Part shown: positions 2,652 to 64,000 of the stretch, in pieces
Layout: each line of letters starts with the position of its first letter
Numbering within the stretch: position 1 is the stretch's first letter
Origin: Pontibacter virosus
Lineage (GTDB): Bacteria; Bacteroidota; Bacteroidia; Cytophagales; Hymenobacteraceae
Assembly: GCF_003096355.1 (NCBI RefSeq)
Contig: NZ_QEKI01000001.1
Coordinates: forward strand, 124,001 to 188,000
Direction: 5' to 3'
Length of the DNA stretch: 64,000 bases
Position numbers and translations under genes: made by a program
The notes under the pieces: generated by a model
Told to the model about the DNA's origin: nothing
The model's database searches: none
The model's input: the letters and a program-made list of their open reading frames with translations, nothing else

Positions 2652-3749
2652 TTACTGCCTCTCCTGCCGTTTAGTCGAAGCCCGTTCCAGCGCCAGCAGC
2701 ACTTGCTCGTTCACATCCCCGAAGATAGAGATACCCGCCGCACCGTTTGCCAGGGCGAGCGCCATACCTTGCTGCAGCTCTTCGTTGCTTTTGAAATCAG
2801 GCAGGTATAAGCCGGCGTAAAGCGGGAACTTTCCGCTCAGAAAATGCATCCCTTCTGCCACGGCGTCCCCAATCCAGCGAACGTCCTCTTTGTAGAAGCC
2901 ATGGTAAATCATAGGGTATACGGCGTTTAGGTTCCAGTTTGTCCAGTCCTGGCGCACGATACGGCGGGCAACCTCCGGTGTGGGGAAAACGGCTGCGGTA
3001 ATGGGTTTCTTTTTCTCCTTTGCTACCTCTGCCAGGTGATTCACAATGCTATTGACTGCGTTGTAACGGAAAAGCCGCCAGGAAAGACTAGCCTCCGGGT
3101 ACTCCAGGTCCTCTATGTCCTGCCCTCGCCAAGCTTTAAATTTGGTGCGGCACACACTACAGTAGCAGTAGTCATACTCAGGAAGCTCTTTCGTCTGCTC
3201 TATTTTATAATCGTCCCACAAGTTTACCGGTAGGATCACATCGCAAAACCGAACGTAGTCCAGATGGATGCCGTCGATGTAATCTTTGCTGAGGATGCTG
3301 CGCACATCCTCGGCCAAATACTGCTTTACCTCCTCCCGGGATGGGCAAAGCCAGCGGTAGTAATTCACGTACGGTGGCTTGTCGGCGCAGGACTCTCCTT
3401 TCCGGTTAATGGCATACCACTCTGGGTGTTTCTGTAGCAGTTCCTTCTCGCCGCGGTTCATGGTCCACATCCAGCGGTGCGCTTCCAACTTGTTGGCCTT
3501 CGCTATGCGGTAATGCTTTTCACTGTCGGCTTCGAAGAAAATGCCTCGGATGCCTGCTTCGTAAAACCGCCTGTATTGCTGCTGCAGGTCCGCCTCTTTA
3601 TCGGACTGGTTCGGCCTGGTCCATACCCAGTGCTTGAGCTGTTTTTTCTTCGCTACAGGAGCAGTCAAATCCGCAAATGCTGTGGCCGGTATACCTGCGG
3701 CCAGGCCTGCCAGCGCACCGGCCTTCAGGAAAGTTCGTCTTGTTTTCAT
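2652..3749 (-). CDS. GHL10-like TIM-barrel putative glycosidase, Tat-exported
   Basis: A 365-residue protein with a twin-arginine signal (TRRTFLKAG) and a TIM-barrel body resembling the glycosyl-hydrolase-like GHL10 (DUF187) group. The segment GIHLDYVRF, with Asp164, is the typical strand-4 motif of that group and is a likely active-site position. A C-x-C-x-x-C cluster (Cys195, 197, 200) could bind a metal or form disulfides. No activity can be assigned. The start overlaps the stop of the upstream CBM9-like lipoprotein by 4 nt (ATGA), so the two are translationally coupled and probably work together at the cell surface or periplasm. It is the last gene of the minus-strand cluster. Its position suggests a role in the same glycan pathway, but that is inference. 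Confidence 0.7.
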   Translation of the reverse strand: MKTRRTFLKAGALAGLAAGIPATAFADLTAPVAKKKQLKHWVWTRPNQSDKEADLQQQYRRFYEAGIRGIFFEADSEKHYRIAKANKLEAHRWMWTMNRGEKELLQKHPEWYAINRKGESCADKPPYVNYYRWLCPSREEVKQYLAEDVRSILSKDYIDGIHLDYVRFCDVILPVNLWDDYKIEQTKELPEYDYCYCSVCRTKFKAWRGQDIEDLEYPEASLSWRLFRYNAVNSIVNHLAEVAKEKKKPITAAVFPTPEVARRIVRQDWTNWNLNAVYPMIYHGFYKEDVRWIGDAVAEGMHFLSGKFPLYAGLYLPDFKSNEELQQGMALALANGAAGISIFGDVNEQVLLALERASTKRQERQ

Positions 3750-4909
3750 CGTAAGCCTTTTATGGTCTGTACCAATCCGTTTTCATTAATGCTCCATACC
3801 TTATTATCCGGCCCCTGTATGGTGGCCATGAACTGCAGCGTGCCCGCTTCCAGCTTCAGCTGATTTGGCTGTCCCTCCACCTCTAATGCAGCGTTGCTGA
3901 GTCCTAGTTCCTCCAGCGAGTTACTGTAATGCCCGTGTTCCCCGTGGAAAGCCTTCTGCCGGTAATACACCAGCCACAGGTATTGTTTTTGCTTTTCAGA
4001 ATAAGGCATGGTGAACGCAACACCAGGCCTTGTAACCGGTTGCTTGCTAAAGTATAAATAGCCCCACCTCTCCGGCAAGTGCATGTTAACAACGCCCTGC
4101 GGCGACCATACCCAGTTATGCTCCGGCAGTGGTTTTCCGTCTTCGCTTTTGCGTTTCACATACCTGCCATTCACCACGTCCACATCCCATTGCACCCGAG
4201 AGAAGTTGATGCGCCACAGGGTCCCCTCTTCGGGTACTTTGGTATGATTCCCAATCGTGACTGAGCGGAAAGGGATCGCCATTTCCACCGTCCAGCCCTC
4301 ATCGGTATCGGTGGGATCATTTAGCGTGCCCTGCACCTGCACCGCAGACTGTAAGCCATGCAGATCCCAGGCGATCAGGGCGCCGTTGTTGTTGCGGTAG
4401 GGCTTTGAGAGGAACAGATCGAATATGGTGTTAAGGGCGTTGACCTCAACCTCAAAATACTGGTGCGTGTCGTTGTCAGGGTCCAAGAATACCTCAAAGT
4501 CATTGTCGTGGAAAATAACAGCATCGTGCTGTGTGATGTTTGCCCACACATGCGGCTCTTTCAGTTCGGCAGCGATATAGAGATGCTCGTCGTCCCAGGT
4601 CATCTTGACTCTGGTAGGATACAATGGTGCCGGCTTTTTGTCACCTTCAATATCGGTGAACAACTCCGTCCAGGCGACCTGCTGCCATACCTCCTCCTTA
4701 ATGTTCCCGTCTATCGTAGGTGCTTTCTCTGTAAAATATGTCACGTAATGCCGGGGCTCGGTAAAGAGATGCTCCAGTCCCTCAAAAGAGGGAACCGTTT
4801 CACTTTGCTTGCCGGCATCAGTAAATTCATTTGCCGAAACGGAAGAAGTTACCTGTGCGCAGGCCGAAACCATATACATCAGGCACAAGACTAGACCGTA
4901 TTTTGTCAT
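3746..4909 (-). CDS. CBM9/DOMON-like carbohydrate-binding lipoprotein
   Basis: A 387-residue lipoprotein (lipobox ending at Cys17) whose body is one carbohydrate-binding family 9-like domain. Features of that fold are APTIDGNIKEEVW near residue 63, the WDDEHLYIAAELKEPHVWA strand pair, the DNDFEVFLDPDND loop and the GWTVEMAIPF strand. Such domains bind sugars or heme, and this one carries no visible catalytic domain. About 100 residues at the C-terminus are not recognised. It is coupled by a 4-nt overlap to the GHL10-like protein, and 55 nt separate it from the GH20 gene upstream. The likely role is to hold or present substrate to the coupled enzyme, which is inferred from the gene order. Confidence 0.7.
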   Translation of the reverse strand: MTKYGLVLCLMYMVSACAQVTSSVSANEFTDAGKQSETVPSFEGLEHLFTEPRHYVTYFTEKAPTIDGNIKEEVWQQVAWTELFTDIEGDKKPAPLYPTRVKMTWDDEHLYIAAELKEPHVWANITQHDAVIFHDNDFEVFLDPDNDTHQYFEVEVNALNTIFDLFLSKPYRNNNGALIAWDLHGLQSAVQVQGTLNDPTDTDEGWTVEMAIPFRSVTIGNHTKVPEEGTLWRINFSRVQWDVDVVNGRYVKRKSEDGKPLPEHNWVWSPQGVVNMHLPERWGYLYFSKQPVTRPGVAFTMPYSEKQKQYLWLVYYRQKAFHGEHGHYSNSLEELGLSNAALEVEGQPNQLKLEAGTLQFMATIQGPDNKVWSINENGLVQTIKGLR

Positions 4910-4964: not shown

Positions 4965-7271
4965 TTAATGTTTCAGCCAGTTCTGCGGCACTTCCTGCAA
5001 CTGGCTGCCGTCTTTGCTGTAAAGGAGCTTTAAGGTATAACCTCCGCCGCCCTCTATAAAGTCGAGTTCGAAAGGTTGAAGTCCTTTTTCCAGCGCTACC
5101 TGTCCGCTTTTTTCTATAGGCGGATGAAGTCCGTCGTTGTCAACGACCAGGCGATCGGCAATCCGAAGCACACCTCCGTCGTCGCAGGTCAGGAAGAAAC
5201 TGTAAATACCTGTTTCCGGCACCTCCAGGTAGCCTCTGAACTGGACCCCGAAGCTGGGTGCTTTTGCCTCCTGAGGCACCTGCAGGCGCTCCACCACCGT
5301 ACTTCCTGCTGGCGTGGCACTCTGCATACCCTTGGTGGTTCGAAAGGCACCCTTGTAGTACATACTCTGCAAACCAGCCTTCGCGTTTGCCACCTTAGCT
5401 GGCCTGGCATACGCCTGTTTTTCATAGAGGAGGGTATACGTATCCCCTTTCAAACCTCCCGGCGTGAAGGCTGCCAGTTTGATAGTAGTTGATTCTGTAA
5501 TTATAAGCGGCTTGTCTAATACCTTGGAGGATGCACCGGGTTGGCTTCCGTCTGTGGTATAGCGGATAATGAGGTTATCGAGCGGCTTTTGCAGGTTCAG
5601 CGTGGTCTTGTCAGTAAACACGTTCACATCCATGAAGCCCTCGAGGTCTGGCAAGCGGTAACGCACGTTCAGCGCGTCAAGCCGCTTGTAGTGGCTTTGC
5701 AGGCGCTGCAGGTAAGACGCATAATCGCGCTGCTTCGACCACACCACTTCTGACAGTGCCGTCATGCGGGGCATGTACATGTACTCGGCCCTGTTTTCGG
5801 AAGGAATGTATTCCGTCCAGATATTTGCCTGGGCACCCAAAATATTCCTGGCTTCAGCGCTGTTCAGCCCCTTCGGTACCACATTGAAGTGGTACACATT
5901 ATAAACAGCGTTCTTGTCTGGCAGTGCATCAAAGTACAGCGGACTGTTAGGCGTCATAATTACCTCGTTGCCGTTTCTTGCGGCTCGTACAGGTGCATCA
6001 GGTACCCAGCTGCGCCAGTACATGACTGTTGCCTCAGGACTGATGCCGCCATCCAGTACTTCATCCCAGCCTATCAGCTTCTTGCCTTTCGACTGGAAAA
6101 ATTTCTGCATACGGTGTATAAAATAGCTTTGCAGCTCATCCACATCTTTCAAGCCCTCGCGCTGCATCAGTTGCTGACAGGCCGGTGAGTTTGCCCAGGT
6201 GGTTTTCTCCACTTCATCGGCTCCGAGGTGTATGTACTGGCTGGGGAACAGGTCTATTATCTCACCGAACACATTCTCGGCAAACTCATAGGTACTCTCG
6301 TTGCAGGGGCAAACCGGCACCGAAAAGGTCTCTCCCCACCCCGCTTCACCACAGGTCAGAAACGGATAGGAATCAATGGCCGCTTTCATGTGCCCGGGCA
6401 TATCAATTTCAGGAATAATCTCTACATGACGGGCCGAGGCATAGGCAATAATATCGCGCATTTCAGCCTGGGTATAGAAACCGCCATACATCGTTTTCCC
6501 ATTCTTCTGTACAATGTGTCGCTCGTCCAGCGCGAAATCAGGATTCTCCACTGACATTTTGATCGCAACAGAATCGTGGTTGTTGAACGTACGCCATGCT
6601 CCCTCTTCGGTCAGCTTTGGGTACTTCTTAATCTCGATGCGCCAGCCCTGATCGTCAGTGAGGTGCAGGTGCAGTTTATTAAACTTGTAGAGTGCCAGCA
6701 GGTCAATAAACTTCTTCAGGTAATCAGTCGAGAAAAAATGCCGCGACACATCCAGGTGCATGCCACGCCAGCCAAAAGCCGGTTCGTCCTGAATCTGCAA
6801 GGCTGGCAACGCCAACTGCGTATCAGGAGCGCTCTTCTTCTGCTCTATACTTACAGGTAGCAATTGGCGAAGTGTTTGCACCGCCCTGAACATACCTGCT
6901 GGCTCCCGAGCTGACAGCTTTACCTGCTGCGGCGTAATGGTCAGGCTATACCCTTCGGCAGCAGTTATACCTTTATCATACTGCAACACAATGGTGTTGG
7001 AGGTTCCTTTCTTTGCTTGCTTGAGTGGTTTGCCGAGGCTGCCGGCAAGGAGGTACTGCAGCTGCTCTGCCTCGTTACTGAATACACCGCTCTTTTTTGG
7101 CAACACCAGCTTTGTCTGCCTCGTGATGGTGAAACTTCCCTCCCCGCTCGTTAAGGAAGTAGGGTAAGGAATCAAAGCATATTTTGTATCTATCGTCTGG
7201 GCCGCCGCTAAAGCAGGAATCCAGAGAAAAATAAGGGCGCAAAGAAAAGTACTGAAATAGTGTTTAAACAT
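4965..7271 (-). CDS. GH20 beta-N-acetylhexosaminidase with PA14 domain
   Basis: A 768-residue secreted exo-hexosaminidase that should remove terminal beta-GlcNAc or beta-GalNAc. In order it has a signal peptide ending at about residue 24, a GH20b accessory domain (about 27-150), the GH20 barrel (about 155-500), a chitobiase-type C-terminal sandwich (about 540-625) and a PA14 domain (about 640-765). The catalytic pair is Asp352-Glu353 in HLGADEVEK, the substrate-assisted dyad of the family. PA14 domains often bind glycans, and this is the only GH20 here with one. It lies 58 nt downstream of the GH29 fucosidase in what looks like one transcription unit. Confidence 0.95.
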   Translation of the reverse strand: MFKHYFSTFLCALIFLWIPALAAAQTIDTKYALIPYPTSLTSGEGSFTITRQTKLVLPKKSGVFSNEAEQLQYLLAGSLGKPLKQAKKGTSNTIVLQYDKGITAAEGYSLTITPQQVKLSAREPAGMFRAVQTLRQLLPVSIEQKKSAPDTQLALPALQIQDEPAFGWRGMHLDVSRHFFSTDYLKKFIDLLALYKFNKLHLHLTDDQGWRIEIKKYPKLTEEGAWRTFNNHDSVAIKMSVENPDFALDERHIVQKNGKTMYGGFYTQAEMRDIIAYASARHVEIIPEIDMPGHMKAAIDSYPFLTCGEAGWGETFSVPVCPCNESTYEFAENVFGEIIDLFPSQYIHLGADEVEKTTWANSPACQQLMQREGLKDVDELQSYFIHRMQKFFQSKGKKLIGWDEVLDGGISPEATVMYWRSWVPDAPVRAARNGNEVIMTPNSPLYFDALPDKNAVYNVYHFNVVPKGLNSAEARNILGAQANIWTEYIPSENRAEYMYMPRMTALSEVVWSKQRDYASYLQRLQSHYKRLDALNVRYRLPDLEGFMDVNVFTDKTTLNLQKPLDNLIIRYTTDGSQPGASSKVLDKPLIITESTTIKLAAFTPGGLKGDTYTLLYEKQAYARPAKVANAKAGLQSMYYKGAFRTTKGMQSATPAGSTVVERLQVPQEAKAPSFGVQFRGYLEVPETGIYSFFLTCDDGGVLRIADRLVVDNDGLHPPIEKSGQVALEKGLQPFELDFIEGGGGYTLKLLYSKDGSQLQEVPQNWLKH

Positions 7272-7329: not shown

Positions 7330-9183
7330 TTAATTACTCTCGATCGGCTTGATTTCTTCGCGGTACAGTTCTACCGGCTTGTCCAGCAGCACAGCGATCA
7401 CGGTCAGGTCTTTGTCCAGCTGGTCTTCCGGCACATCTATGTATACAATGCCGGGTATTTCGCTCCAGTACTGCTTGTTAAAGATCTCGTGCCCGAGTAA
7501 AGTGCCGTTGCCTACGATCCGGATGCGGTGTAGTTTGTTCTTCAGCCCTTTGATGGCAATAGGTCCTGTTGGTTTGCCCTCCACAAACAGGTACAGCGTC
7601 TGCTTGTCTTCCGATAAGGCGGTAGCTCCTTCGTAGTGACCGGCAGGAAGGCCGGGATTGGATTTGTATAGGGTCTCGGCATGCTTTCGCACCCAACGCT
7701 CCACACCAACATCAACCAATTTCAGCTGTTTTACATCAGCCCCATCCGGCTGCAGCGCGGTATTCTGGAAAGGATTATACCCTGCCTGCAGGTTGTCGGC
7801 CAGTTGACGGATAGTGCGGTTTCGCTGCACGTCATCCAGCTTTCCTGATTTCTGCAGCGATGCCAGCGCTACTTTATCAGGTTCAGCAGAAGTCAGCTTC
7901 AAGGGTTCATCAAAATTCAGGGCCAGTACGGTCAGCTGCTCATCGTAAGCATTGGCAGGTACCTGTATGTAAATGGCGTTGCCCTGCTTTTCATACTTGG
8001 CTGTGGCGTTGCCACCCACCACTTGTATACTTTTAACCGCTGATGACAGCCCCTGCACGCGTACCGACTCTGCTCCCTGATTCTCTACGAACAGGTATAA
8101 GGTTTTGCGGTCTTTGGACAAAGTGGAGTTACCGTAGAAGTGCCCGTCAGGTATACCTGCCACGGTTCCATAGATAGCCCCTGCATGCTTCTTTGTCCAA
8201 CGGCCCAGCTCTTTCAGGATCGCCACCTGCTCCTCTGGTATGGTGCCGTCCGGCTTGGGGCCGATGTCGAGCAACAGGTTGCCGCCGTTGCTGATGCAGT
8301 CGGCAAAAATACGGATGATCTGGTTGGGGCTTTTGTAATGCCGGTCGTGGGGTGTGTAGCCCCATGCGTCGTTCATGGTCAGGCACAGCTCCCAGTAGGG
8401 GTCCTGCGGTCTTACTACCGGTACCCCCTGCTCTGGTGTGGCGTAGTCGCCGTAATGGTTGAGGCGGGAGTTGATGATGACGTTCTTGTTATACCCCAGC
8501 AGCATGTCCCGCACCTTGGCCGACTCCCACTCTTCGGCATTGTGCTCCCAGTCACCGTCAAACCAGTACAGGTCCGGGTTATACATTTTGGAAAGTTCGC
8601 GAAGCTGCCCTTGGTAGTAGTTCAGGTACTTCTTCCAGCGACGCGGCTCTTCGGCCAGGGTATAGCGTTTCTTTGCGCGGGTAAACACGTCGTAGTCTGT
8701 ATAGCTCCAGTCCGGAAGCGAGAAATAAAGGCCGGTTTTCAAGTCCTCCTTCCGCAACGCCTCTACAAACGGTGTGAGCACATCCCGTTTGGCCGGTGTA
8801 TGCTTTCTGGTGTTGATGCCACCCATCTTGCTGTCCCAGAGCGCCACCCCGTCGTGGTGCTTGGTGGTGATCACGGCATAACGCGCGCCGGATTCTTTTA
8901 TGAGTTTTGCCCACTCTTCAGGCTGGTAATTGGCAGCCGTGAAACCATCCAGCTGCTTCATGTAGTCCTCGTGGCTGATGTAGTTGTTAAAGAAAGACCA
9001 GGACTCCGGGATTCCATTCACCGCATAGATGCCCCAGTGGATAAAAATACCCAGCTTGGCATCGCCAAACCACTGCATCTTGTCTGCATCCTGCGGTGCT
9101 GCTGTTTTTTTGGCTTGCGCAAAACCTGCCGACCCGTGAAGAGCCAGCAGCATCAGAAATAAGAAACTCAATCTGTACGTCAT
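7330..9183 (-). CDS. GH29 alpha-L-fucosidase with tandem C-terminal modules
   Basis: A 617-residue secreted fucosidase. The ATG at 9183 is chosen because it begins a clean signal peptide (MTYRLSFLFLML...GFAQA); upstream in-frame residues do not look coding. The GH29 barrel starts at MQWFGDAKLGIFIHWG, has the WFDGD motif with nucleophile Asp209, and ends near NGGNLLLDIGPKPDG. Two related C-terminal beta-sandwich modules follow. Each begins with a PxGHxYG/EG segment, continues with a KxTLYLFVE strand and a (V/I)xGL turn, and ends in an xxLTVxAxxxDxPxxL strand. One copy is normal for the family and the second looks like an internal duplication. It sits between cutC and the GH20-PA14 gene. Fucose linkage is not predictable from the sequence. 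Confidence 0.93.
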   Translation of the reverse strand: MTYRLSFLFLMLLALHGSAGFAQAKKTAAPQDADKMQWFGDAKLGIFIHWGIYAVNGIPESWSFFNNYISHEDYMKQLDGFTAANYQPEEWAKLIKESGARYAVITTKHHDGVALWDSKMGGINTRKHTPAKRDVLTPFVEALRKEDLKTGLYFSLPDWSYTDYDVFTRAKKRYTLAEEPRRWKKYLNYYQGQLRELSKMYNPDLYWFDGDWEHNAEEWESAKVRDMLLGYNKNVIINSRLNHYGDYATPEQGVPVVRPQDPYWELCLTMNDAWGYTPHDRHYKSPNQIIRIFADCISNGGNLLLDIGPKPDGTIPEEQVAILKELGRWTKKHAGAIYGTVAGIPDGHFYGNSTLSKDRKTLYLFVENQGAESVRVQGLSSAVKSIQVVGGNATAKYEKQGNAIYIQVPANAYDEQLTVLALNFDEPLKLTSAEPDKVALASLQKSGKLDDVQRNRTIRQLADNLQAGYNPFQNTALQPDGADVKQLKLVDVGVERWVRKHAETLYKSNPGLPAGHYEGATALSEDKQTLYLFVEGKPTGPIAIKGLKNKLHRIRIVGNGTLLGHEIFNKQYWSEIPGIVYIDVPEDQLDKDLTVIAVLLDKPVELYREEIKPIESN

Positions 9184-9226
9184 CTTACTTGTCTTTTTTT
9201 GTTTTTGAGGTTTGCTGGAGACACGG

Positions 9227-9982: not shown

Positions 9983-9983
9983 G

Positions 9984-10958: not shown

Positions 10959-11028
10959 TGGTTTTATTTTTGTTATTTTCAGGACTTTCAATCGATCATC
11001 CAGTTGAGTCTACTCCCCAATCCTGGCG

Positions 11029-16449: not shown

Positions 16450-16498
16450 GTATGGGTAAAGGGTAGTCAAGATTTTATAGGCGGTATCGGTATACACT

Positions 16499-18022: not shown

Positions 18023-18167
18023 GTTGATTTGTAAAAGTATAGCCGCAGCATGTTTCACTAACTCAGTTCATCCATTATTCTGTTACCTCGATCTCTCTTT
18101 GACTTCGGGGTACATTTCTCCTATCGTTGAGGCAGCAGCTAAAGTATAAATAGGCTCAAGGCCTGTT

Positions 18168-19865: not shown

Positions 19866-19906
19866 GCGATGCACTGTCAAACTAATAAGTGGCAGCAGGG
19901 TCCTTT

Positions 19907-19945
19907 TGAAGTATAAACATCACTGTAAATCATGTTTATACTTCA
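19907..19945. repeat. Inverted repeat in the leader of a GH20 gene
   Basis: GAAGTATAAACAT at 19908-19920 is repeated exactly in reverse complement at 19932-19944, with an 11-nt loop and one further T-A pair at the base. No T-run follows on either strand, so it is more likely an operator or an mRNA hairpin than a terminator. It lies 42 nt upstream of the GH20 start at 19865 and 44 nt after the stop of the preceding GH20. Confidence 0.55.
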
Positions 19946-19988
19946 GATGGCTGCTTTATTCTGCCAAAAAAGCCTTATCAGAATCCCC

Positions 19989-21623: not shown

Positions 21624-21686
21624 AAGAGATGGTTTAATGTGTATAGCATTGCGTTGATTATGAATCAAGTTCTACCAGTCTATACC

Positions 21687-39038: not shown

Positions 39039-39060
39039 CAAGTATTAATTTGGATTATAC

Positions 39061-42751: not shown

Positions 42752-47198
<4,447 letters not shown>

Positions 47199-48989: not shown

Positions 48990-49051
48990 CCCAATTATAT
49001 TACAAGTCAAAGGCGATCACTAGGTTACTTCTCTATCGGACTTTTGCTATT

Positions 49052-51702: not shown

Positions 51703-51716
51703 GTCGGATGGTAATT

Positions 51717-55502: not shown

Positions 55503-58202
55503 TCAGAATACCTCTTCGCCGACCTTGTTCTTATTCGTGTTTTTACTTTTCAGGTGATCTTCCCGGTACATGGTTAGATCATCGATATCTTTTTTGTCCT
55601 TGCCAAACAGCAGGCTGAACACATAGCCGAACACAACGCAGGAAACCAGCCCGGTGAAGGCGTAGAGGAGCAGGTTGATGTTCGTGTACTGGCTGATGTA
55701 AAACTGCACCATACCACTGAGCAAAAGGCCAGTGATCGCTCCCTTCGAATTGGCGCGTTTCGTAAAGATGCCAAGCACAAACAAACCGCCCAGGCCACCC
55801 GTGAAAAGACCCAGGATCATATTAAACTGGTCCCAGAGTGAAGAGATGCCCCACTGCGCCATGACCAGTGCCAGAGATGTGCCGAGGATTCCGATCGTCA
55901 TGGTGAGCGCCTTTGCTGCCGTCAGGTAGTTCTTCTCCGACTTGCGTGGGTAGAACCTTCTGTAGAAATCTGTGATCAAAGCGGTAGTCACGGAGTTCAT
56001 GCTGCTGCTCAGTGTAGACATGGCCGCGGCAAAAACAGCCGCAATCAACAAGCCTGTAATACCGGCGGGCAGTTCCCGCACGATATACCACGGGAAAATA
56101 GCATCCTGGCTTTGCAGCTGATAATTTACTTTTTCAGGGTGCTCCTTGAAGAACAGGTATAGCAAGGTCCCGATCGAAAAGAAGATCAAGGCAGAGGGCA
56201 GTGCCATCCAGGCGCCCAGGCGCATGCTTCGCTTGGCTCCTGCTTCGTCGCGGGTAGTGATGTAGCGCTGCACCACCGACTGATCGGTGCCGTATGAGAT
56301 CACATTGATGGCTAATCCGCCCAGCAGTACTACCCAAAGCGTCGGCTCGTTGAAGGTGAAGGTCGTGTTCAGGATATCCAGTTTATCGTTGTCCTGGATC
56401 GTCTGCCAGATAGTGGCCGCATCGCCTTCCAGCTGCAGCGGGATCATGACCAGGCAAACCAGTGCGCCACCCAGCAGGATGACCACCTGCGCTACGTCGG
56501 TCCAGATCACGGCTTCAATTCCGCCTTTCATGGTATAAAAGATCGTGATTGCGCCCATCAGTACAATGCAGAGGTTCACGTTAATTCCAGTTACCAGTGT
56601 CAGCGCCAGGCTTGGTAGCAGCAGCACAATAGCCAGTCTCCCCATCTGCAACATAATGTACAGGAGTGACGCCATCGCACGGGCCGCGTAGTTAAAGCGC
56701 TGCTCGAGGTACTCATAAGCCGAGGTTATCTGCAACCTCCGGTAGAAAGGTATAAAATAGGTTGTAATGACCGGGATTACCAGGATGATGGTGATCTGCA
56801 GGATGAAGTAGTTCCAGTTGGTAGCGTAGGTTTTGGCCGGAATCGACATAAAGGTGATGGCGCTCAGCTGTGTACCGTAAATACTTAGCCCTGCCGCCCA
56901 GGCCGGAATGCGCTGCCCGCCCCGGAAATAGTCATCGGTGGTATCCTGGTGCCTGGAAGTCCAGAGGCCGATACCAACCATCAGCAGCAGGTATAGCACT
57001 ACCACCACATAATCCAGCCAGCCGAAATACTGTTGCGACTCCAGGCTTCCCTTCAGAATATCTGGCGTGCGAACACCTGGCCTGATCTCACCGGATGGGA
57101 TCAGTACATCGTTATCCCACCTGGCTGCAAACGTGGTGACCGGCGCATAAGGGAGCTGGTCAGTTTTTGTCCAGGAGTCGGTAACGGTATTGTAGAGGTA
57201 TACGTCTCTGCTGAAACCATCGTGCACTGTCTGCAGCCTGAGCTTGCTCGCCTGTAACTGCTGCTTTTCGGCTTCATCGGTCGCTTTGGGGATGGCCGCA
57301 TTCAGTTGCTCGATCTGAGTGAAAATATTCCCTTTGTCGCCCCCGAGTACCAGAATGTAGTTGGCCCCGGTAGGCAAGCCGGTTGCAGCAGATAGCGTAG
57401 TTTCATTCCCTTTGCCATCTGATAGGGTGCTGAGCTGTTTCCACTCGTTTTTCTTAGGATCAAAGCGAAAAGTAGTGCCATGCAGCTCGCTGACGCCAGT
57501 CGGGGATTGGGCCCTGCCGCCAATCAGGTATAGCACCGGATACTCTCCGTTGGACTGCGCCACTGCTACCGCATGCGACAGCGCGGTTGGCAGGTCCGGC
57601 AGTTTCTCCCAGCCCCTGGCTGGGACTGCCATGTCCAGCCGGTACAATGCCTTGGAAGCTTGGCCTGTGGTTTCGCCGCCGGCTACGTATACCTGGTTCC
57701 CAATCAGGGTCGCCGCCGCATTGGTAAGCGGCAGTGGCAGGTCAGGCATTGGCGTCACGGTTACTTCTTTACTTCCGGGGTTCCACTGCAGCAGCTGTAC
57801 GGTACTCTGGATGCCCTGTTCGTTTTCTCCCCCTATGCTCAGGATGCCTTTGCCGGTGGTAACGCTGGCGCTGTAGCCCAAAGGCTCGGGCAGTTTGAAC
57901 GACTGAGAATGCCAGGCATAGTCCCCTTTTTCATCTTTGAGCAAAACGAATATATCCTGCCAATACTTCTTTCTGCCTCCCTCCCAGGGCAAGCCTTCCG
58001 GGAAATTGGCACCGCCGGCTATTAGCAGGGCGCTGTTATGTACGCCCCCTGCTGCTCCGGCCAATCCGGGTTGCAGAGGCTGCCCCGTCGCTGCTGGCAA
58101 GCTGGCTGCCACGGACCATTTCATGCTGTTCTGCATTGGCTGCCAGGCTTTGCTCTCTGTCACAGCCAATAGGGCCAGAAGTAGGGTCAGGATACGCTTC
58201 AT
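55503..58202 (-). CDS. Fusion of a Kelch-type sialic acid mutarotase and an SSS symporter
   Basis: An 899-residue fusion. After a signal peptide, residues about 25-385 form a Kelch propeller of the NanM/cyclically permuted mutarotase type (GGANFPEGLPWEGGRKKYW, then VYVAGGETTGQASKALY). Residues from about 393 to the end are a complete sodium/solute symporter of about 500 residues with 13 or so membrane helices (from WLDYVVVVLYLLLMVGIGLW), including TDQSVVQRYI and a cytoplasmic C-terminal tail. The propeller would sit in the periplasm, convert the alpha-Neu5Ac released by sialidases to the beta anomer, and hand it to the inner-membrane importer. This is a physically coupled two-step uptake device. 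It lies 9 nt downstream of nanA. Confidence 0.9.
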   Translation of the reverse strand: MKRILTLLLALLAVTESKAWQPMQNSMKWSVAASLPAATGQPLQPGLAGAAGGVHNSALLIAGGANFPEGLPWEGGRKKYWQDIFVLLKDEKGDYAWHSQSFKLPEPLGYSASVTTGKGILSIGGENEQGIQSTVQLLQWNPGSKEVTVTPMPDLPLPLTNAAATLIGNQVYVAGGETTGQASKALYRLDMAVPARGWEKLPDLPTALSHAVAVAQSNGEYPVLYLIGGRAQSPTGVSELHGTTFRFDPKKNEWKQLSTLSDGKGNETTLSAATGLPTGANYILVLGGDKGNIFTQIEQLNAAIPKATDEAEKQQLQASKLRLQTVHDGFSRDVYLYNTVTDSWTKTDQLPYAPVTTFAARWDNDVLIPSGEIRPGVRTPDILKGSLESQQYFGWLDYVVVVLYLLLMVGIGLWTSRHQDTTDDYFRGGQRIPAWAAGLSIYGTQLSAITFMSIPAKTYATNWNYFILQITIILVIPVITTYFIPFYRRLQITSAYEYLEQRFNYAARAMASLLYIMLQMGRLAIVLLLPSLALTLVTGINVNLCIVLMGAITIFYTMKGGIEAVIWTDVAQVVILLGGALVCLVMIPLQLEGDAATIWQTIQDNDKLDILNTTFTFNEPTLWVVLLGGLAINVISYGTDQSVVQRYITTRDEAGAKRSMRLGAWMALPSALIFFSIGTLLYLFFKEHPEKVNYQLQSQDAIFPWYIVRELPAGITGLLIAAVFAAAMSTLSSSMNSVTTALITDFYRRFYPRKSEKNYLTAAKALTMTIGILGTSLALVMAQWGISSLWDQFNMILGLFTGGLGGLFVLGIFTKRANSKGAITGLLLSGMVQFYISQYTNINLLLYAFTGLVSCVVFGYVFSLLFGKDKKDIDDLTMYREDHLKSKNTNKNKVGEEVF

Positions 58203-58211
58203 CAGACTATA

Positions 58212-59153
58212 TTATACTTTTTTCAACTCAGTGGACCGCGAACAATACTCACGGAATCCCAACGCAGCTACATCCTCGCTAAAAGCCTGAAACTGTGCCT
58301 TACTCATATTGCGTACCGGCAGGCGGAATTCACCGCAGTCCAGCCCTATCAATTTCATATAAGCCTTGCCGGTGGCGATGCCGCCATACTTACCCAGCAA
58401 CCGGATCATATCGATTGACTGCTGCTGCAGACTGCGGGCAGCTTCCTGATTTCCCAGGTTATAGGCCTCGATAAGGGCCGTGTACAAGGGGGCCGCGTAG
58501 TTATAGGTACTCCCTACGCCGCCTTTCGCTCCCAGCACCAGCGCAGAAAGCAGGTTCTCGTCCCTTCCCCACAGCATATCATACCGGCCGTTCTCAAACT
58601 GGAGGCAGGACAGAAAATCCATAAAATCCTCGTGTGTATATTTGATCCCGGCAAAATTCGGGATCTGCCCGCTCACTTCGCGCAGCAGGTCGGTCATCTG
58701 GAAGTTAACCCCCGTCAGCACCGGGATGTGGTAGTAGTAAAAAGGCATACCAGGCACAGCATTTGCCACTACCTGACAGCACGCGGCCAGCACCTGCACA
58801 CTGGCCGGCTTGAAGTAAGACGGGGCCGTGAACGAGACGGCGTGCAAGCCAATGTGCTGCGCATGCTGTGCCAGTTCAATGGCATCCTGCAGGCAGGTGC
58901 CTCCCACGAGCGTAATTACCTTAAAGTCTGTATCTCCTTTGGTAGCGGCGGCCCAGGCCTCTGCTACCTTTTTCTTTTCCTCAATAGTTAGCGACACCCC
59001 CTCTCCTGTTGACCCGCAGATAAAGGCGCCGGTATTCCCGTTTGTTTTCAACAAGCTGTAGTAAGATGGTATCACCGCCAGGTTCAGGCTCCCATCTGGG
59101 TGCATCGGAGTAAAAGGAGCTGCTATAAGCCCCTGTATGTGTTCGATGTTCAT
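58212..59153 (-). CDS. nanA: N-acetylneuraminate lyase
   Basis: A 313-residue cytoplasmic class I aldolase of the DapA/NanA family that splits Neu5Ac into ManNAc and pyruvate. The Schiff-base lysine is Lys171 in FAGIKYTHED, Tyr141 lies in YYYHIP, and the substrate carboxylate loop is CGSTGEGVSLT. The tyrosine-rich YYYHIP and the GIKYTHEDF form fit NanA rather than dihydrodipicolinate synthase. It heads the sialic acid module, directly followed by the mutarotase-symporter fusion (9 nt). A -7-like element lies just upstream of its start, after the terminator of the SusC/SusD operon. Confidence 0.94.
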   Translation of the reverse strand: MNIEHIQGLIAAPFTPMHPDGSLNLAVIPSYYSLLKTNGNTGAFICGSTGEGVSLTIEEKKKVAEAWAAATKGDTDFKVITLVGGTCLQDAIELAQHAQHIGLHAVSFTAPSYFKPASVQVLAACCQVVANAVPGMPFYYYHIPVLTGVNFQMTDLLREVSGQIPNFAGIKYTHEDFMDFLSCLQFENGRYDMLWGRDENLLSALVLGAKGGVGSTYNYAAPLYTALIEAYNLGNQEAARSLQQQSIDMIRLLGKYGGIATGKAYMKLIGLDCGEFRLPVRNMSKAQFQAFSEDVAALGFREYCSRSTELKKV

Positions 59154-59201: not shown

Positions 59202-59249
59202 CAAAAAAATCCAGTTCTTCCGGGTGGGCCAGACCACCCGGAAGAACTG
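59202..59249 (-). terminator. Strong terminator after the right-hand SusC/SusD pair
   Basis: A perfect 16-bp stem, CAGTTCTTCCGGGTGG (59212-59227) with its exact complement at 59234-59249, closes a 6-nt loop. On the minus strand it is followed by seven T residues. It lies 25 nt past the SusD stop and separates that operon from nanA. Confidence 0.93.
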
Positions 59250-59273
59250 AACAATTTGACAGAAAATGATTTA

Positions 59274-60797
59274 TTAATATCCTGGTGTCTGCGTCAACTT
59301 CGGATCGGAGTTCAGCATGCCAACTGAGATAGGCAGCAGGAATTTATACTCCTGACCAGGCGCCAGGTATACAGGGTCCACGTAGTTAAACACCCATTCG
59401 TTGCCTGCTCTTCTGAGCGACCACCAGCGCTTGCCTTCACCCACGAACTCTCTCAGGTCCTCTTCGAGAATTGCGCGCATATCTTCCTGCTGGCTACCCT
59501 TGGTATAAGGTGTATAGTCATTGCCGTAGGCTCTCTGGCGAATCAGGTTTATTTCAGCTGACGGATCGCCCCCTAGCTTGGTCTTAGCCTCGGCCAGCAT
59601 CAATAGCACATCGGCAAACCGGTAAATCGGAAAATCGACGTCATAGAGTTGCATTCCCGCGTCCACTCTGCCCACAAACTTAGTTAACAGCACCGCGGCA
59701 ATCGGGTATGTCGGGGGGGTGTTGCGGTACATTACTTGAAAGGTAGCGGCTGCACGCGTATCATTCGGGTCATTGAGTTTTTCAATCATTGCGGCCGACA
59801 TGCCGACTCTGCTGGCACCAGCTACAAAAGGATACACCTGCGATACAGGTCTGGGATTCGTAAACGGATCCAGTACCAGCGTGCTGGCCTGGGTAGTATT
59901 GACCATAAAACTGCCATACACCCCCATGGTCGCTTCGTTCTTCTCGTAGCTGATCGCAAATATCTTCTCTTTGTTATTTGCCTCCATGGTTGCGTTGAAG
60001 ATGTCAGCGTAGTTCTCCCGTAGCCCCAGGCCGGCTATCATGGTCACTTCCTCCAGCGACTGTTGCGCAATGGCCAGATCGGCACTGCCGCCTCCCATAT
60101 GCGTTCCTGACCAGATGTGAACATCGCCTTTCAGCGTTAGTGTAGCCGCCCTGTTCCAGAAAATGCGCTTTGCTGACATGTTGTTATCACTTCCAAACAA
60201 TGTCAGCGACTGCTCAAGATCAGCCTTGATCTGTGCCATTACCGCTTCCGGCGTAGCCCGCTCTTTATACAAGTCGGCCAGGTTCTTTACTTCTGTCACA
60301 GGCTCTGTAGTCAGCGGAACACCTCCCCAGGTTTTGAGCATGGTATAGTAGATATAAGCACGCAAACCGTATGCCTCAGCCAGCGCGCGGTTACGCTGTT
60401 CCTCTGGCACAAGTGTCATCGGGAATAGTGTAATTACGGTATTCACTTTGTCCAGCAGACCGTAGAACCCTGCCCAGTTACCGAACGGTACTACGTTGGC
60501 GCTTATATTATGGGCATGAAGGTTTCTTAACCCACCATCTTCCGATTCTGTAAAGAGGCCGTCGGCCCATATTTCAGAGCGCATTTCCCCGAGTTGGAAA
60601 AAGGTGCCATGGTAATTCCTGAATGAACTGTAGACTCCATAGTACAAGGTCATGGCTGCATTCGGGTCTTTCAGGATCAAATCCCTGTTCAGGGCTGTCT
60701 GCGGCTGTACCTCATCCAGCTTGTCAGAACACCCCGTTGCACTCAGCGCCAGTGAAAGTACCAGTACATATTTTAGTTTAGATAGATAACGTTTCAT
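59274..60797 (-). CDS. SusD/RagB-family outer-membrane glycan-binding lipoprotein
   Basis: A 507-residue surface lipoprotein with lipobox ending SATGCSDKLDEVQPQ. The N-terminal TPR region and the C-terminal block (REFVGEGKRWWSLRR, then NPxLTQTPGY-like end) are those of the classical SusD family. It is shorter than the other two SusD proteins here. It pairs with the SusC gene 22 nt upstream. Because it is directly followed by the sialic acid genes, its ligand is probably Neu5Ac or a small sialylated glycan, as for the NanU-type SusD proteins. That is inferred from position only. Confidence 0.94.
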   Translation of the reverse strand: MKRYLSKLKYVLVLSLALSATGCSDKLDEVQPQTALNRDLILKDPNAAMTLYYGVYSSFRNYHGTFFQLGEMRSEIWADGLFTESEDGGLRNLHAHNISANVVPFGNWAGFYGLLDKVNTVITLFPMTLVPEEQRNRALAEAYGLRAYIYYTMLKTWGGVPLTTEPVTEVKNLADLYKERATPEAVMAQIKADLEQSLTLFGSDNNMSAKRIFWNRAATLTLKGDVHIWSGTHMGGGSADLAIAQQSLEEVTMIAGLGLRENYADIFNATMEANNKEKIFAISYEKNEATMGVYGSFMVNTTQASTLVLDPFTNPRPVSQVYPFVAGASRVGMSAAMIEKLNDPNDTRAAATFQVMYRNTPPTYPIAAVLLTKFVGRVDAGMQLYDVDFPIYRFADVLLMLAEAKTKLGGDPSAEINLIRQRAYGNDYTPYTKGSQQEDMRAILEEDLREFVGEGKRWWSLRRAGNEWVFNYVDPVYLAPGQEYKFLLPISVGMLNSDPKLTQTPGY

Positions 60798-60819: not shown

Positions 60820-63800
60820 TTAGAGTGTCACATTTAATCCTGTTGTAACGGTGCGGGCCAGCGGAAATCTTCCGACATCGTTGCCACCCACTTCAGGGAA
60901 AGTACCGCTATACCCTGTAAAATACATCAGGTTTGTACCTGTCAGGTGCAGGCGGAGTCCCTGAATCTTGTCTTTCAGGATGTTCTGCAAGAAGGACTCA
61001 GGCACCTGGTAGCTAAGTGTCATTTCCCTTACAGCCAGATAATCACCCTTTTCATAGAAATTAGCAAAAGATGTAGTACCGCCACCAGCATCCTGGAAAT
61101 AGTTTCTGCCATAGTTGGCCCAGTAGTAGCGTGGCAGCGTACCCTCCGGATTGTCAGGGTGCCAGGTATTTTTCACATCCACCGGACCATTCTGCGATCC
61201 CTGCACCTGTGACAGGCCTCTGAGTTTGGCTTGGTTCAGGATCATGAACCCGAGTGCGTAGTCGAACTGTGCGTAAAGGTTGAAGCCCTTCCAGCCAAAA
61301 TTGGTGGCAAAGCCGCCCTGCACAGTAGGAATTGTTCTGCCCACATATACTCTATCACGGAAATCGATTGTGTCATTTCCGTCAACATCGCGCCAGCGGG
61401 CATCACCCAGCAGCTTCACTCTCTTATCCCGATATGGCAGGTAGGCGTTATACAGGTTAGCATCCTTGTCCAGGTCACCCTGGTTTAAGTAAATACCATC
61501 ATAAATCGGAGCCCAGATTTCATCGATCCCTACACGCTTGCCCTCCTGCAGGCCACCCACGTGCACGAGTCTTCCTGTCACCGGATCCCATACCTGGAAT
61601 GTGCCCTGTCTGTTTCCTTCCAGGCCATTATCAGGTAGCCGCTTCACATAATTCTTCACATGGTAGAAGCTGCCGCTTACGTCCCAGCTAAGGCCACTCG
61701 GCCCTGATGGTCGCAGCACACTTGCTTTAAGCTCCAATTCCACCCCTCGGTTCTGCAGCTGTCCCAGGTTTGTGGTAAAGCTGCTGTAACCTGTCCATAC
61801 AGGTATATTCAAAGAAGTGATCTTATCATAGATATCACGGACGAAGTAATCACCGATCAACGTGATCCTATTGTTAAACAGGCCCAGGTCCAAACCGAAG
61901 TTCAGAGAAGAAGCGCGCTCCCATTTAAGTGCCGTGTTCAGCAGAAAGTTAGGTGCAAAGCCGGCATTACCGCCATAGATACCAGCACCGCCATAGGTGG
62001 CAGCGGTGGCAAAGTCGCCAAGCGGATCAATGCTGCCGTTCTGCCCCCAGCTCAATCTTGGTTTGAATGTGCTGACATACTGGCTTATGCCCGTTTCCGT
62101 AAAGAAGGCTTCATTGTGCATATTCCAGCCTGCCGAAATACCGGGGAACAGACCATAGCGGTTATCAGCCAGTCGGGAAGTACCGTCGTAGCGCATGTTC
62201 ACATTCAGCAGGAAGCGTGAGTCATAATCATAGGTAAAGCGCCCGATACCAGACACCAGACGGTGCCAGGATGAGAAAGCAGACCAAGGTATACCCACCG
62301 CCTCTGTTGAAGCAGAGAGGTAAGGAATGAAGTCGGTTGGCGCATTTCTGCCGGCGCCGTAGTAGCCAGAGCCGCGCGACTCAAAAAACTCGCCACCGCC
62401 CATCACACTGATCGTGTGCTTGTCAAAGCTGTTGTCATAGCGAAGGAAGCCATTGTAAGAATGCTGATTGGCCTGAGGCAGCGAGAATGATGCATTCCGG
62501 GTTGTAATAAATGCTCCTCCGGTGCCATTCTGGTAGGCCTTTGTAAAGCTCTCTGAAGCAGTATAGCGCATAAAGCCGGATGCAGAACCCATAAATCTCA
62601 GGGTAGGCAGTATGGTGTATTCCAGGTTCAGTCCACCAGAGTAGCGCTGCTCCCGCGTCTCATTGACAAACTTGTCTTGCAGGTATAGCGGATTACCCAG
62701 GGTGCCGCCATCTACGCCGGGTAGGATATCCCCCGTATTGTCATGTGTCAGTCGTACAGTAGGTGCGATGGCTCCGAATCGCTGGATCAAACCTCCGGTT
62801 AAGCCACCCCCTGCGTCTGCTGTGAGGTAGGTAGGAGTATTCTTATCATTATATGTCGCCAGGTTCAGGTTGACTCTCAGGTTTTCGTTCACGTTCAGCC
62901 CCCCGTTGAAGTTCAGGTTATACCGCTTCAGGGAAGATCCGACTACCATACCTACATCTTTAACTGTACCCACGCCCAGAGAGAAGGTGCCTTTGTCACT
63001 CCCGCCAGAAAAATTAATGTAATGTTCCTGCAAGGTACTCTCCTGCAGGATCAGATCCTCCAGTTCACGCTGTGACATGGAACGGTACAGGATACTATCC
63101 TGCTTTGTAGGATCGAAAGGGTTCTTATCGACCAGAAGATTCCACTGCGGATCGTTGATCAGGCTTCTGTTATTGCTATTTACAAGCTGGGTAGAGTATT
63201 TGCCATCAGGCGACGCCCAGGCAGAATTCAGTCCCCAGCCCCAGGCACCGGTCAGCTGGTTGCGTGTGTTGTTGGCCTCAGCGATATTGTTGTCTTTCAG
63301 AGCCGCCTCATACCTGCTTGCAAGCCCTCTTCTGTTCCAGATAATATAATCCTCAGCACCCATGTACTCCATCGGATTTCTACGAACAAAATTCCGGGCA
63401 GTCTTCATACTGTAAGTTACCTGTGAGCGGCCTTTCTTACCCTTTTTCGTGGTAATCAGGATGACACCGTTTGCAGCCCTGGCACCATAGATAGCTGTAG
63501 AGGCAGCATCCTTCAGCACGTTAATGGTTTCAACATCCTCGGAGTTGATGCCGTACATTGAAGGCAGTATCACACCGTCTACGATTACTAGCGGAGAGCC
63601 GCTTCCGTTGAAGTTTGTACCCCCGCGAAAGGAAATTGCAGGCGTAGCGCCAGGCTGACCTGTCGTCTGCTGCACTCGCAGACCGGCTACCGTACCCTGC
63701 AATGCCGTAGCCACGTTAGTTCGTGGAGCGGACTGTAGCACCTTCTCGTCCACCGTTGATACAGCCCCTGTTAAGGTATGCCTGCTTTGCTCGCCATACC

Positions 63801-64000
63801 CAACCACTACTACCTCATTAAGCTTTGCAGTAGCAGGCTCCAAGGCTATCACCAGTTCATTTGCCACATCGGTTATGGCAACTTCCCGGGTTTCAAAGCC
63901 CAGATACCGCACAAGCAGTATATCGCCCGGAGCTGCCCTCAGGGAGAACTTACCCTCCACATCGGTTTGGGTACCGCGGTCCGTACCTTTAACATTCAGA
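60820..64000 (-). CDS. SusC/RagA-family TonB-dependent transporter (N-terminus outside window)
   Basis: The open frame runs to the window edge: residues VKGTDRGTQTD upstream of the first internal start belong to the carboxypeptidase-regulatory-like domain, so the signal peptide and true start lie beyond 64000. Visible parts are the box NEVVVVGYGEQSRHTLTGAV, the plug with AIYGARAANGVILITTKKG and the whole barrel. The C-terminus is TGLNVTL, ending in Leu instead of the usual aromatic residue. It should import the ligand of the SusD protein encoded 22 nt downstream, probably sialic acid or sialylated sugars (compare NanO-type transporters). Confidence 0.95.
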   Translation of the reverse strand, partial: LNVKGTDRGTQTDVEGKFSLRAAPGDILLVRYLGFETREVAITDVANELVIALEPATAKLNEVVVVGYGEQSRHTLTGAVSTVDEKVLQSAPRTNVATALQGTVAGLRVQQTTGQPGATPAISFRGGTNFNGSGSPLVIVDGVILPSMYGINSEDVETINVLKDAASTAIYGARAANGVILITTKKGKKGRSQVTYSMKTARNFVRRNPMEYMGAEDYIIWNRRGLASRYEAALKDNNIAEANNTRNQLTGAWGWGLNSAWASPDGKYSTQLVNSNNRSLINDPQWNLLVDKNPFDPTKQDSILYRSMSQRELEDLILQESTLQEHYINFSGGSDKGTFSLGVGTVKDVGMVVGSSLKRYNLNFNGGLNVNENLRVNLNLATYNDKNTPTYLTADAGGGLTGGLIQRFGAIAPTVRLTHDNTGDILPGVDGGTLGNPLYLQDKFVNETREQRYSGGLNLEYTILPTLRFMGSASGFMRYTASESFTKAYQNGTGGAFITTRNASFSLPQANQHSYNGFLRYDNSFDKHTISVMGGGEFFESRGSGYYGAGRNAPTDFIPYLSASTEAVGIPWSAFSSWHRLVSGIGRFTYDYDSRFLLNVNMRYDGTSRLADNRYGLFPGISAGWNMHNEAFFTETGISQYVSTFKPRLSWGQNGSIDPLGDFATAATYGGAGIYGGNAGFAPNFLLNTALKWERASSLNFGLDLGLFNNRITLIGDYFVRDIYDKITSLNIPVWTGYSSFTTNLGQLQNRGVELELKASVLRPSGPSGLSWDVSGSFYHVKNYVKRLPDNGLEGNRQGTFQVWDPVTGRLVHVGGLQEGKRVGIDEIWAPIYDGIYLNQGDLDKDANLYNAYLPYRDKRVKLLGDARWRDVDGNDTIDFRDRVYVGRTIPTVQGGFATNFGWKGFNLYAQFDYALGFMILNQAKLRGLSQVQGSQNGPVDVKNTWHPDNPEGTLPRYYWANYGRNYFQDAGGGTTSFANFYEKGDYLAVREMTLSYQVPESFLQNILKDKIQGLRLHLTGTNLMYFTGYSGTFPEVGGNDVGRFPLARTVTTGLNVTL

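Follow-up and report, generated by a model that had tools for sequence, protein, structure and literature searches.

The window analysed here is a stretch of 64,000 nucleotides from the 4.88-Mb genome of Pontibacter virosus (G000:C1:124001-188000; positions below are window coordinates), and our subject is the row of exactly 33 consecutive minus-strand genes that occupies it from 2652 to 64000, the last of which, SusC1, runs past the window end. An earlier note, made from the sequence alone, had proposed some 33 such genes with three SusC/SusD pairs, and both the count and, by Pfam, the pairs and the enzymes it named hold good. By family the row carries two GH33, one GH125, four GH20, two GH29, one GH84, one GH123, two GH27, a LacZ-type GH2, and a GH16, along with a GDSL/SASA esterase, a PNGase, two sulfatases, NanA, and an N-acylglucosamine 2-epimerase. 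Fifteen genes on this strand belong to named glycoside hydrolase (GH) families, and the three SusC/SusD pairs lie among them, beside carbohydrate-active enzymes as in a polysaccharide utilization locus (PUL). We consider it probable that the row is a large PUL super-locus combining a sialic-acid (nan) operon with a locus for N-glycans and mucin-type glycans, with a regulator switch predicted. In order of transcription its genes are as follows, assigned by Pfam unless a further basis is given:

60820-64000, minus strand: SusC1, TonB-dependent receptor with its start beyond the window (Plug and CarbopepD_reg_2); NanO-like by its pairing with a NanU-like SusD1
59274-60797, minus strand: SusD1, NanU-like sialic-acid binding lipoprotein (best solved relative 4l7t, NanU, 235.8 bits; lipobox ATGC)
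58212-59153, minus strand: NanA, N-acetylneuraminate lyase (DHDPS; best solved relative 6h4e, 237.6 bits)
55503-58202, minus strand: NanM mutarotase fused to a sodium/solute symporter (NANM 161.6 and SSF 165.2 bits, each above cut-off)
53886-55451, minus strand: GH33b sialidase (BNR, BNR_assoc_N; four Asp boxes)
51717-53804, minus strand: SIAE sialate O-acetylesterase (GDSL and SASA)
50518-51720, minus strand: N-acylglucosamine 2-epimerase, ManNAc to GlcNAc (also 8bry, 773 bits)
49255-50418, minus strand: GH33a sialidase (BNR_2; four Asp boxes)
47286-49010, minus strand: GH123, which we take to have beta-N-acetylgalactosaminidase-type activity
45990-47198, minus strand: GH27b, alpha-galactosidase/alpha-N-acetylgalactosaminidase-type
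42752-46108, minus strand: LacZ-type GH2 beta-galactosidase
41327-42709, minus strand: GH27a (closest solved structures are alpha-galactosidases)
39296-41233, minus strand: PNGase with a C-terminal extension and possible type 9 secretion tail (PF09113; aligns to PNGase F over 55-317)
37821-39041, minus strand: ROK-family regulator, NagC/Mlc-like (PF00480; best NCBIfam model NagC, 182 bits, under cut-off; CxCxxxxC motif)
34631-37759, minus strand: SusC2 (at least 71% identity in 9 of 11 other islands)
32709-34610, minus strand: SusD2
28931-32182, minus strand: SusC3
26929-28923, minus strand: SusD3
25906-26757, minus strand: GH16 (58 bits)
24312-25853, minus strand: sulfatase 2 (motif C75-G-P-S-R)
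21687-24227, minus strand: GH84 (in 6 of 50 genus genomes)
18168-21668, minus strand: two GH20 beta-hexosaminidases (19989-21668 and 18168-19880)
16499-18058, minus strand: sulfatase 1 (motif C89-S-P-S-R)
14902-16512, minus strand: GH29b alpha-L-fucosidase
12536-14848, minus strand: GH20b
11029-12465, minus strand: GH125 alpha-mannosidase with a Tat-like signal (signal by eye)
9984-10991, minus strand: glycosylasparaginase, GlcNAc-Asn cleavage, with a Tat-like signal (PF01112; 3ljq, 456 bits; signal by eye)
9227-10072, minus strand: CutC-family protein
7330-9270, minus strand: GH29a alpha-L-fucosidase
4965-7271, minus strand: GH20a with a PA14 domain
3746-4909, minus strand: CBM9-like lipoprotein, partner of GHL10 (PF06452, 56 bits)
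2652-3749, minus strand: GHL10-type hydrolase with a Tat-like signal (PF02638, 33.1 bits, over the gathering cut-off of 27.9)

Two plus-strand genes lie at the left end of the window:

268-2568, plus strand: GH92 alpha-mannosidase, convergent with GHL10
1-99, plus strand: 3' end of a GH2 gene whose start lies outside the window, about 2.6 kb to the left (G000:C1:121424-124099; kin of exo-beta-glucosaminidases and beta-mannosidases; 92% identical to a gene of G015)

The row recurs in relatives as a conserved block. The NanM-symporter fusion is present at full length and at least 75% identity in 12 of 50 genus genomes, the window's own included, and a search of 37 genus genomes for PNGase found it in 11, with a twelfth (G062) recognized by synteny. 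The core from the nan genes to PNGase keeps the same order in all 12 of these island genomes, and eight of them also carry the left block in the same order, as expected of the single multi-SusCD glycoprotein-glycan locus that had been proposed. By tblastn on the 11 other islands (50% identity over 30% of the length, a threshold that may score a paralogue as an orthologue, above all for GH20 and GH33 genes), PNGase, NanA, the fusion, the epimerase, the esterase, GH33a, and sulfatase 2 occur in all 11; GH20b, GH20c, GH29b, GH27a, and GH33b in 10; GH16, SusCD2, ROK, and GH2 in nine; SusCD3 and GH29a in eight; the left block (GH92, GHL10, CBM9, CutC, glycosylasparaginase, GH125), GH27b, and sulfatase 1 in seven; and GH84, GH20a, GH20d, and GH123 in five. 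Scored by best-matching frame instead, GH20c is present in three other islands and GH33a in nine. The GntR/FCD regulator that lies to the right of the row was called in 10 of the 11, the exception being G014. Outside the genus, Rufibacter glacialis keeps PNGase, GH27a, ROK, SusCD3, GH16, and GH84 within 22 kb. The earlier note would have given up the unit had synteny placed the modules usually far apart, joined only by assembly; because order and adjacency recur in relatives, the unit is not refuted, and an assembly artefact is rejected, the same order being found in G021 on a single 4.98-Mb contig and in other genomes.

Some features of individual genes in this comparison deserve mention in their own right. 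The LacZ-type GH2 (42752-46108) is 89-96% identical in eight of the nine islands that have the gene and 83% in the ninth, while its neighbours are less alike (PNGase 71-80%, the GH27 genes 78-89%), which may reflect either strong constraint or recent exchange. The TTG called as its start makes it overlap GH27b by 119 bp, and the real start is probably farther downstream. In G031 (L057-L059, 33066-37295 of the joined stretch) NanM, the symporter, and a GH33 sialidase share one open frame of 1409 codons, which may mean that all three are fused or that a sequencing slip has hidden a stop. The G036:C7 island (L060-L063, 12268-14229 of the reversed joined stretch) encodes a 653-aa protein whose N-terminal part resembles, by eye, glucosamine-6-phosphate deaminase.

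The first genes of the row fit the NanOU type of nan operon. Lyase and epimerase are both present as relatives of 6h4e and 8bry, and SusD1 has NanU as its best solved relative, while no comparison of SusC1 with NanO was made. As its transporter the unit does not encode an NanT of the major facilitator superfamily (MFS); it encodes the SSF symporter fused to NanM. Against NCBIfam, the fusion passes the cut-off of TIGR00813 and stays under that of TIGR03548, and its symporter half is closest to 5nv9 (354.8 bits), presumably the sialic-acid symporter SiaT. Its layout comprises a signal peptide recognized by eye, a NanM propeller at about 45-391, and hydrophobic symporter segments from 391, an arrangement in which the mutarotase would sit where the carrier opens to the periplasm. 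In Escherichia coli, periplasmic NanM might raise the efficiency of uptake (PMC10017367). We make no claim of a first description, and the fusion is unnamed in the titles and abstract openings of the literature searched. The unit thus may work like the NanOU type with a different inner-membrane carrier.

At the other end of the core, the PNGase has the catalytic-domain similarity and both key residues of the PNGase F family: D86 and E233 align with residues 60 and 206 of PNGase F and are invariant in 14 of 14 sequences. We take the roles of D60 and E206 in PNGase F as given. The enzyme departs from type I at one position: in a local alignment that is possibly off by one, the E118 of type I lines up with T149, and the residue after it, G150, is invariant. 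In type I enzymes Glu (or Asp) at 118 blocks core alpha-1,3-fucose (PMC9522356), and because T149-G150 stands in its place we would guess that this PNGase tolerates the core alpha-1,3-fucose of plant or insect type. A C-terminal match to Por_Secre_tail (19.3 bits, under the 27-bit cut-off) suggests secretion by the type 9 route. PNGase F itself (1pnf/1pgs) is a sequence relative; the protein here differs from it in about 325 extra C-terminal residues as well as at T149. The glycosylasparaginase of the row likewise has its sequence relatives in 3ljq, presumably of Elizabethkingia origin, and its kin. Beside it, the CutC-family protein (9227-10072) matches an NCBIfam "copper homeostasis protein" model under its cut-off; the two genes adjoin in six of the 11 other islands and are both present in seven, and a sugar-related role for the CutC-family protein seems more likely. 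By eye, three genes (2652-3749, 9984-10991, and 11029-12465) have twin-arginine-type starts (RRTFLK, RRKFIK, and RRDFVK), unlike other starts inspected; the Pfam TAT match of GHL10 is under cut-off.

How far the row is transcribed together can be judged from its hairpins, for which 7000-64000 of the window was scanned. Three are prominent:

59209-59252, minus strand: hairpin terminator or attenuator after SusD1 (19 pairs, -34.3 kcal/mol; at or below -20 kcal/mol in 3 of 8 genomes)
39237-39281, minus strand: terminator after PNGase, conserved in position (20 pairs, -31.8 kcal/mol; at or below -20 kcal/mol in 9 of 10 genomes)
32608-32655, minus strand: terminator after SusD2 (-29.7 kcal/mol; at or below -20 kcal/mol in 4 of 6 genomes)

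These were found within a few bases of the places already named for them (59202-59249, 39233-39284, and 32602-32655). They count 19-20 pairs against at most 10 at any other site scanned, and only they stand out, because the total number of terminator-like sites does not exceed that in shuffles (18 vs 16.8, 22 vs 19.5, and 19 vs 22.1); dinucleotide shuffles of such gaps reached -20 kcal/mol in 3 of 940 cases. After PNGase, a hairpin with a T-rich tail recurs in nine of 10 genomes in differing sequences. The idea that terminators split the row into modules is accordingly borne out most clearly at this conserved position, and less so after SusD1 and SusD2. Hairpins at or below -20 kcal/mol also follow SusD3 in five of nine genomes, the window's not among them, and occur in none of four GH33a-GH123 gaps and none of 10 ROK-SusC2 gaps. 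The hairpin positions point to four likely transcription units here. SusC1-SusD1 would be one, with possible read-through; a second would run from NanA to PNGase, a third would be ROK-SusC2-SusD2, and the fourth, of about 29.5 kb, would run from SusC3 to GHL10. Little in the window speaks for the separate module that had been drawn at 49-39 kb, since the GH33a-GH123 gap (244 bp) has neither a hairpin nor a -7-like element, and NanA to PNGase thus reads as one unit. In genomes without GH123, the GH33a-GH27b gap gives -25.9 (G013), -21.5 (G062), and -3.6 kcal/mol (G024), values that have no shuffle control, and the hairpins of G013 and G062 at this equivalent gap favour a module there. For TTTG/TAnnTTTG, which we assume to be the Bacteroidota promoter consensus, the window has no match against 1.14 expected, and three isolated -7-like elements.

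Evidence for a control that may span these units comes from a predicted operator just past the window end. The palindrome TTATGTATGACATAA at 64160-64174 lies beside SusC1 and the GntR/FCD regulator, and a near-identical copy is present in 12 of 12 loci; the matrix behind this count was trained on 10 of these sites, leaving just G014 and G024 as independent cases, in both of which the site falls within the called 5' end of SusC1. In six of the 12 genomes the regulator also has a second copy next to it, inverted and scoring at least 10 bits. With a matrix from 11 sites, applied to the fetched regions in or near intergenic parts and controlled by 100 column-permuted matrices that keep composition and lose the palindrome, we found 19 further operator-like sites of at least 16 bits in the islands, against a control mean of 0.6 and maximum of 6. 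Strong sites precede SusC3 or the gene after SusD2 (G012, G013, G019, G021, G036, G062), GH125 (G013, G014, G034, G062), the left-flank GH20 (G012, G013, G021), GDSL-GH20 (G015 and the window's own genome, G000), and GH20b (G019); in G031 one lies after GH29a, ahead of a 211-aa unknown frame. A predicted NanR-like regulon across several modules is therefore well supported for the relatives and only suggested for the window's genome, because the islands hold these 19 strong sites, yet the window's genome has one strong extra site and the window none.

Several observations weigh against a shared control and a fixed unit. Inside the window there is no copy of TTATGTATGACATAA, the one match with three mismatches falling in GH2 coding sequence where 0.86 are expected. 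The single strong extra site of the window's genome lies in the left flank before GDSL-GH20 (18.9 bits), accompanied by a weak one before GH20 (11.1 bits), and no site precedes NanA, GH123, PNGase, ROK, or SusC3 there. At looser thresholds the excess over the control narrows to 51 vs 15.7 (at least 10 bits) and 27 vs 6.0 (at least 12 bits), with one of 100 controls reaching the count each time. A -7-like element upstream of NanA means that this gene may own a promoter. SusC1/SusD1 were scored in seven of the 11 other islands, and in the other four (G013, G021, G019, G031) a homologue only 36-41% alike sits at the same position under the same operator; we read this as receptor swapping, and the receptor thus appears to be exchangeable. 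Finally, in four of the 11 the fetched stretch does not include the left block, and GH125 lies on another contig in all four. Absences at the left end in G024, G019, and G031 are weak evidence, because the G024 contig ends inside the locus and the sequence fetched for G019 and G031 stops at the edge of the block.

A rival reading has several independent PULs lying side by side without common control, each regulated on its own and serving a separate substrate (sialic acid; N-glycans or galactosylated glycans; sulfated mucin-type glycans), a serious if tentative possibility. The strong terminators between modules, the near lack of operator copies in the window's genome and their lack in the window, and the separate gain and loss of modules (SusCD3 absent from three of 11 islands, SusCD2 from two) all fit it. 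So does the ROK gene with an upstream region of its own: at 39042-39230 there are AT-rich repeats, ACTTTTTAAA ... AAAAAGT, which look alike by eye in 10 genomes, with the 8-mer CTTTTTAA in eight of the 10. This region is a possible ROK operator, and its presence suggests that ROK provides a second control. Against independence, order and adjacency hold in 12 genomes despite differing right-hand neighbours, and the relatives' operator-like sites before SusC3, GH125, GH20, and GDSL-GH20 far exceed the control. We retain the joined super-locus as the preferred reading.

The super-locus also extends beyond the 2652-64000 first assigned to it, ends that proved wrong on both sides. To the right, the divergent GntR/FCD regulator begins at 64300, 300 bp past the window, and is followed by genes of other kinds (purD-like, recQ-like). 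To the left, glycan genes continue for about 35 kb, to about -35 kb, so that the whole row with its flanks measures about 100 kb. Pfam on part of the frames there gives GH2 (-2.6 kb to 99), GH20, AraC, an MFS transporter, altronate dehydratase-like, FAA hydrolase, amidohydrolase, a second GH92, GDSL-GH20, a phosphotransferase-type protein, GH109, CBM9_2, LacI, a sulfatase-modifying enzyme, GH2, a sulfatase, and GH95. From their family names, the sugar-acid genes in this flank look like a fucose oxidation pathway. Just past the left end of the glycan genes lies a tyrosine integrase (Phage_int_SAM_5, Arm-DNA-bind_5; L020:3434-4779, window -36.6 to -35.2 kb). This integrase, about 36 kb left of the window, together with the patchy presence of the block (12 of 50 genus genomes) and the few genes shared, within the fetched stretches, by right flanks past the regulator (three in G014/G015; one or two in G019/G024/G031, one of them a glycan GH2; one in G031/G036), would suit a horizontally moving genomic island carrying the locus as cargo. 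We hold this to be unlikely, though compatible with the super-locus reading: some of the compared flanks are short (one gene in G024), and ordinary rearrangement also yields differing flanks.

The genes past the left edge of the window bear on how complete the pathway is. The earlier note had called the breakdown complete, covering every step; neither GH130 nor GH18 was found in the genome (GH85 and GH5 were not searched), and a beta-mannosidase-like GH2 lies outside the range it considered, so that the claim is not supported. GH130 profiles matched nothing in the window's genome and in nine of the 12 island genomes, with matches in three. GH18 profiles matched nothing in the window's genome and something in two of the 12, five of 14 control genomes being over cut-off; an ENGase-type locus defined by GH18 is thus not what the window's genome has, the GH85 alternative not having been searched. 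DUF4838 (PF16126) was found in none of 12 genomes, with a weak control (none passed the cut-off), and the PF17753 search was uninformative, no control matching. With PF17786 there was one match under cut-off in the 12 genomes, and its gene led to the window-edge GH2. The relative of this GH2 in G015 matches 2vzo at 240 bits (exo-beta-glucosaminidases) and 5n6u at 151 bits (beta-mannosidases). A beta-mannosidase missing from the window's genome had been considered, and the beta-mannosidase-like GH2 across the window edge overturned it. This GH2 has a close counterpart in two of 12 genomes, the other 10 being without one and eight of them having distant GH2 matches (at most 34 bits). Because GH130, GH18, and close GH2 are rare among these genomes (GH5_18 and GH85 not searched), the core-cleaving step is uncertain in many of the 12.

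One candidate for such a step is the CBM9-like lipoprotein with its GHL10 neighbour. The two could together make up one enzyme whose substrate is the chitobiose or Man-beta-GlcNAc core remaining after PNGase, a new N-glycan-core activity; we regard this as decidedly improbable. GHL10 reaches E 1e-10 or better in 20 of 395 sampled class genomes, and we examined its neighbourhood in 18 of these 20, at 19 loci outside Pontibacter (the window's own and a 110-codon fragment in G435 were left out). CBM9 lies within one gene of GHL10 or is fused to it at 13 of the 19, including one natural fusion, and in seven of the 11 other islands the pair occurs together with GH92. In Flavisolibacter, the GHL10 neighbourhood holds GH92-GH125-PNGase. 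Near GHL10 at the 19 loci, GH92 occurs in four and glycosylasparaginase in two. Counting against a core enzyme are the six loci without CBM9, the 15 without GH92 within the span of up to about 10 kb examined, the window genome's own GH2, and the GH130 of three island genomes. Residues D164, Y165, and Y282 of GHL10 are kept in 27 of 27 homologues and G313 in 26. By chain order, with no alignment to Cwp19, we took D164-Y165 and G313 as the D196-Y197 and G328 of that GHL10 protein (PMC5765458). Cwp19 and the C-terminal domain of PgaB share with the protein here the profile match and a TIM-barrel model, whereas here the partner is a CBM9 lipoprotein. The predicted model is of modest quality, Foldseek placing beta-amylase and GH164 on top and VIA-align PgaB, Cwp19, and GH42. 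A clean fold assignment was not reached. Membership of GH163 was rejected as well: PF16126, which we take to be linked to GH163, gave only 19.2 bits against a cut-off of 26.6.

The enzyme content also raises the matter of substrate. GH27, GH123, GH84, GH16, and sulfatases in the window, and GH109, GH95, a sulfatase, and a sulfatase-modifying enzyme to its left, might indicate that mucin-type O-glycans or glycosaminoglycan-like material come first and N-glycans are secondary. This seems somewhat unlikely to us: PNGase and glycosylasparaginase act on N-linked glycans, the row has both, and PNGase is present in all 11 other islands while GH84 and GH123 (five of 11 each) are dispensable.

As a super-locus of this kind, the row may work as follows. 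PNGase, secreted by the presumed type 9 route, would free N-glycans, and glycosylasparaginase would, by homology, handle the GlcNAc-Asn left on peptides. Oligosaccharides would be imported by SusCD2 and SusCD3. The esterase and sialidases would free Neu5Ac, to enter through the NanOU-like SusCD1, and GH20, GH84, GH29, GH123, GH27, GH2, GH92, GH125, and the sulfatases would trim the remainder, with the periplasm or the surface as their probable location. The NanM half of the fusion may convert Neu5Ac to the transportable anomer for import by the symporter half, after which NanA and the epimerase would yield GlcNAc. The divergent GntR/FCD regulator is predicted to switch the nan unit at TTATGTATGACATAA, plus further modules in several relatives, and the ROK protein to exert a second, GlcNAc-type control of SusCD2. 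If the shared operator is real, sialic acid cues a large part of a programme of glycoprotein degradation encoded in one row. The locus offers a convenient model for the assembly of composite PULs, for SusCD receptor swaps under a fixed operator (four of 11 relatives), and for a PNGase and glycosylasparaginase route without GH18. It also offers proteins that can be tested: the mutarotase-symporter fusion, the PNGase without the fucose-blocking glutamate of type I, and the CBM9-GHL10 pair.

Among known systems, the row fits an established type of gene cluster, though at unusual size, and is not a new kind of system: a nan operon and a PNGase-based glycoprotein locus are merged in it and conserved as a block. 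No paper joining Pontibacter, "polysaccharide utilization", and N-glycan appeared in the literature searched; a Pontibacter PUL paper deals with GH13 and GH57 (PMC11206854). With the nan operons of Tannerella forsythia and Bacteroides fragilis (PMC3969230) it has in common a NanO/NanU-type pair, lyase, epimerase, sialidase, putative sialate esterase, and hexosaminidase, and in B. fragilis a putative repressor gene lies upstream, as here. Those operons use the MFS permease NanT, whereas the present one has the SSF-type symporter-mutarotase fusion and shares its row with PNGase and N-glycan enzymes. With Bacteroides N-glycan loci (PMC9522356, PMC10154615) the row shares release by PNGase or ENGase, GH92, GH29, GH2, and SusCD pairs. 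B. thetaiotaomicron uses GH18 for release (PMC9522356, PMC10154615), in contrast to the PNGase and glycosylasparaginase here, with no GH18 match in the genome. The earlier remark that known loci are dispersed agrees with PMC9522356, in which the plant-N-glycan enzymes of B. massiliensis are spread over several loci. Thus, where such gut Bacteroides distribute the programme among several loci, this Pontibacter carries it in one row.

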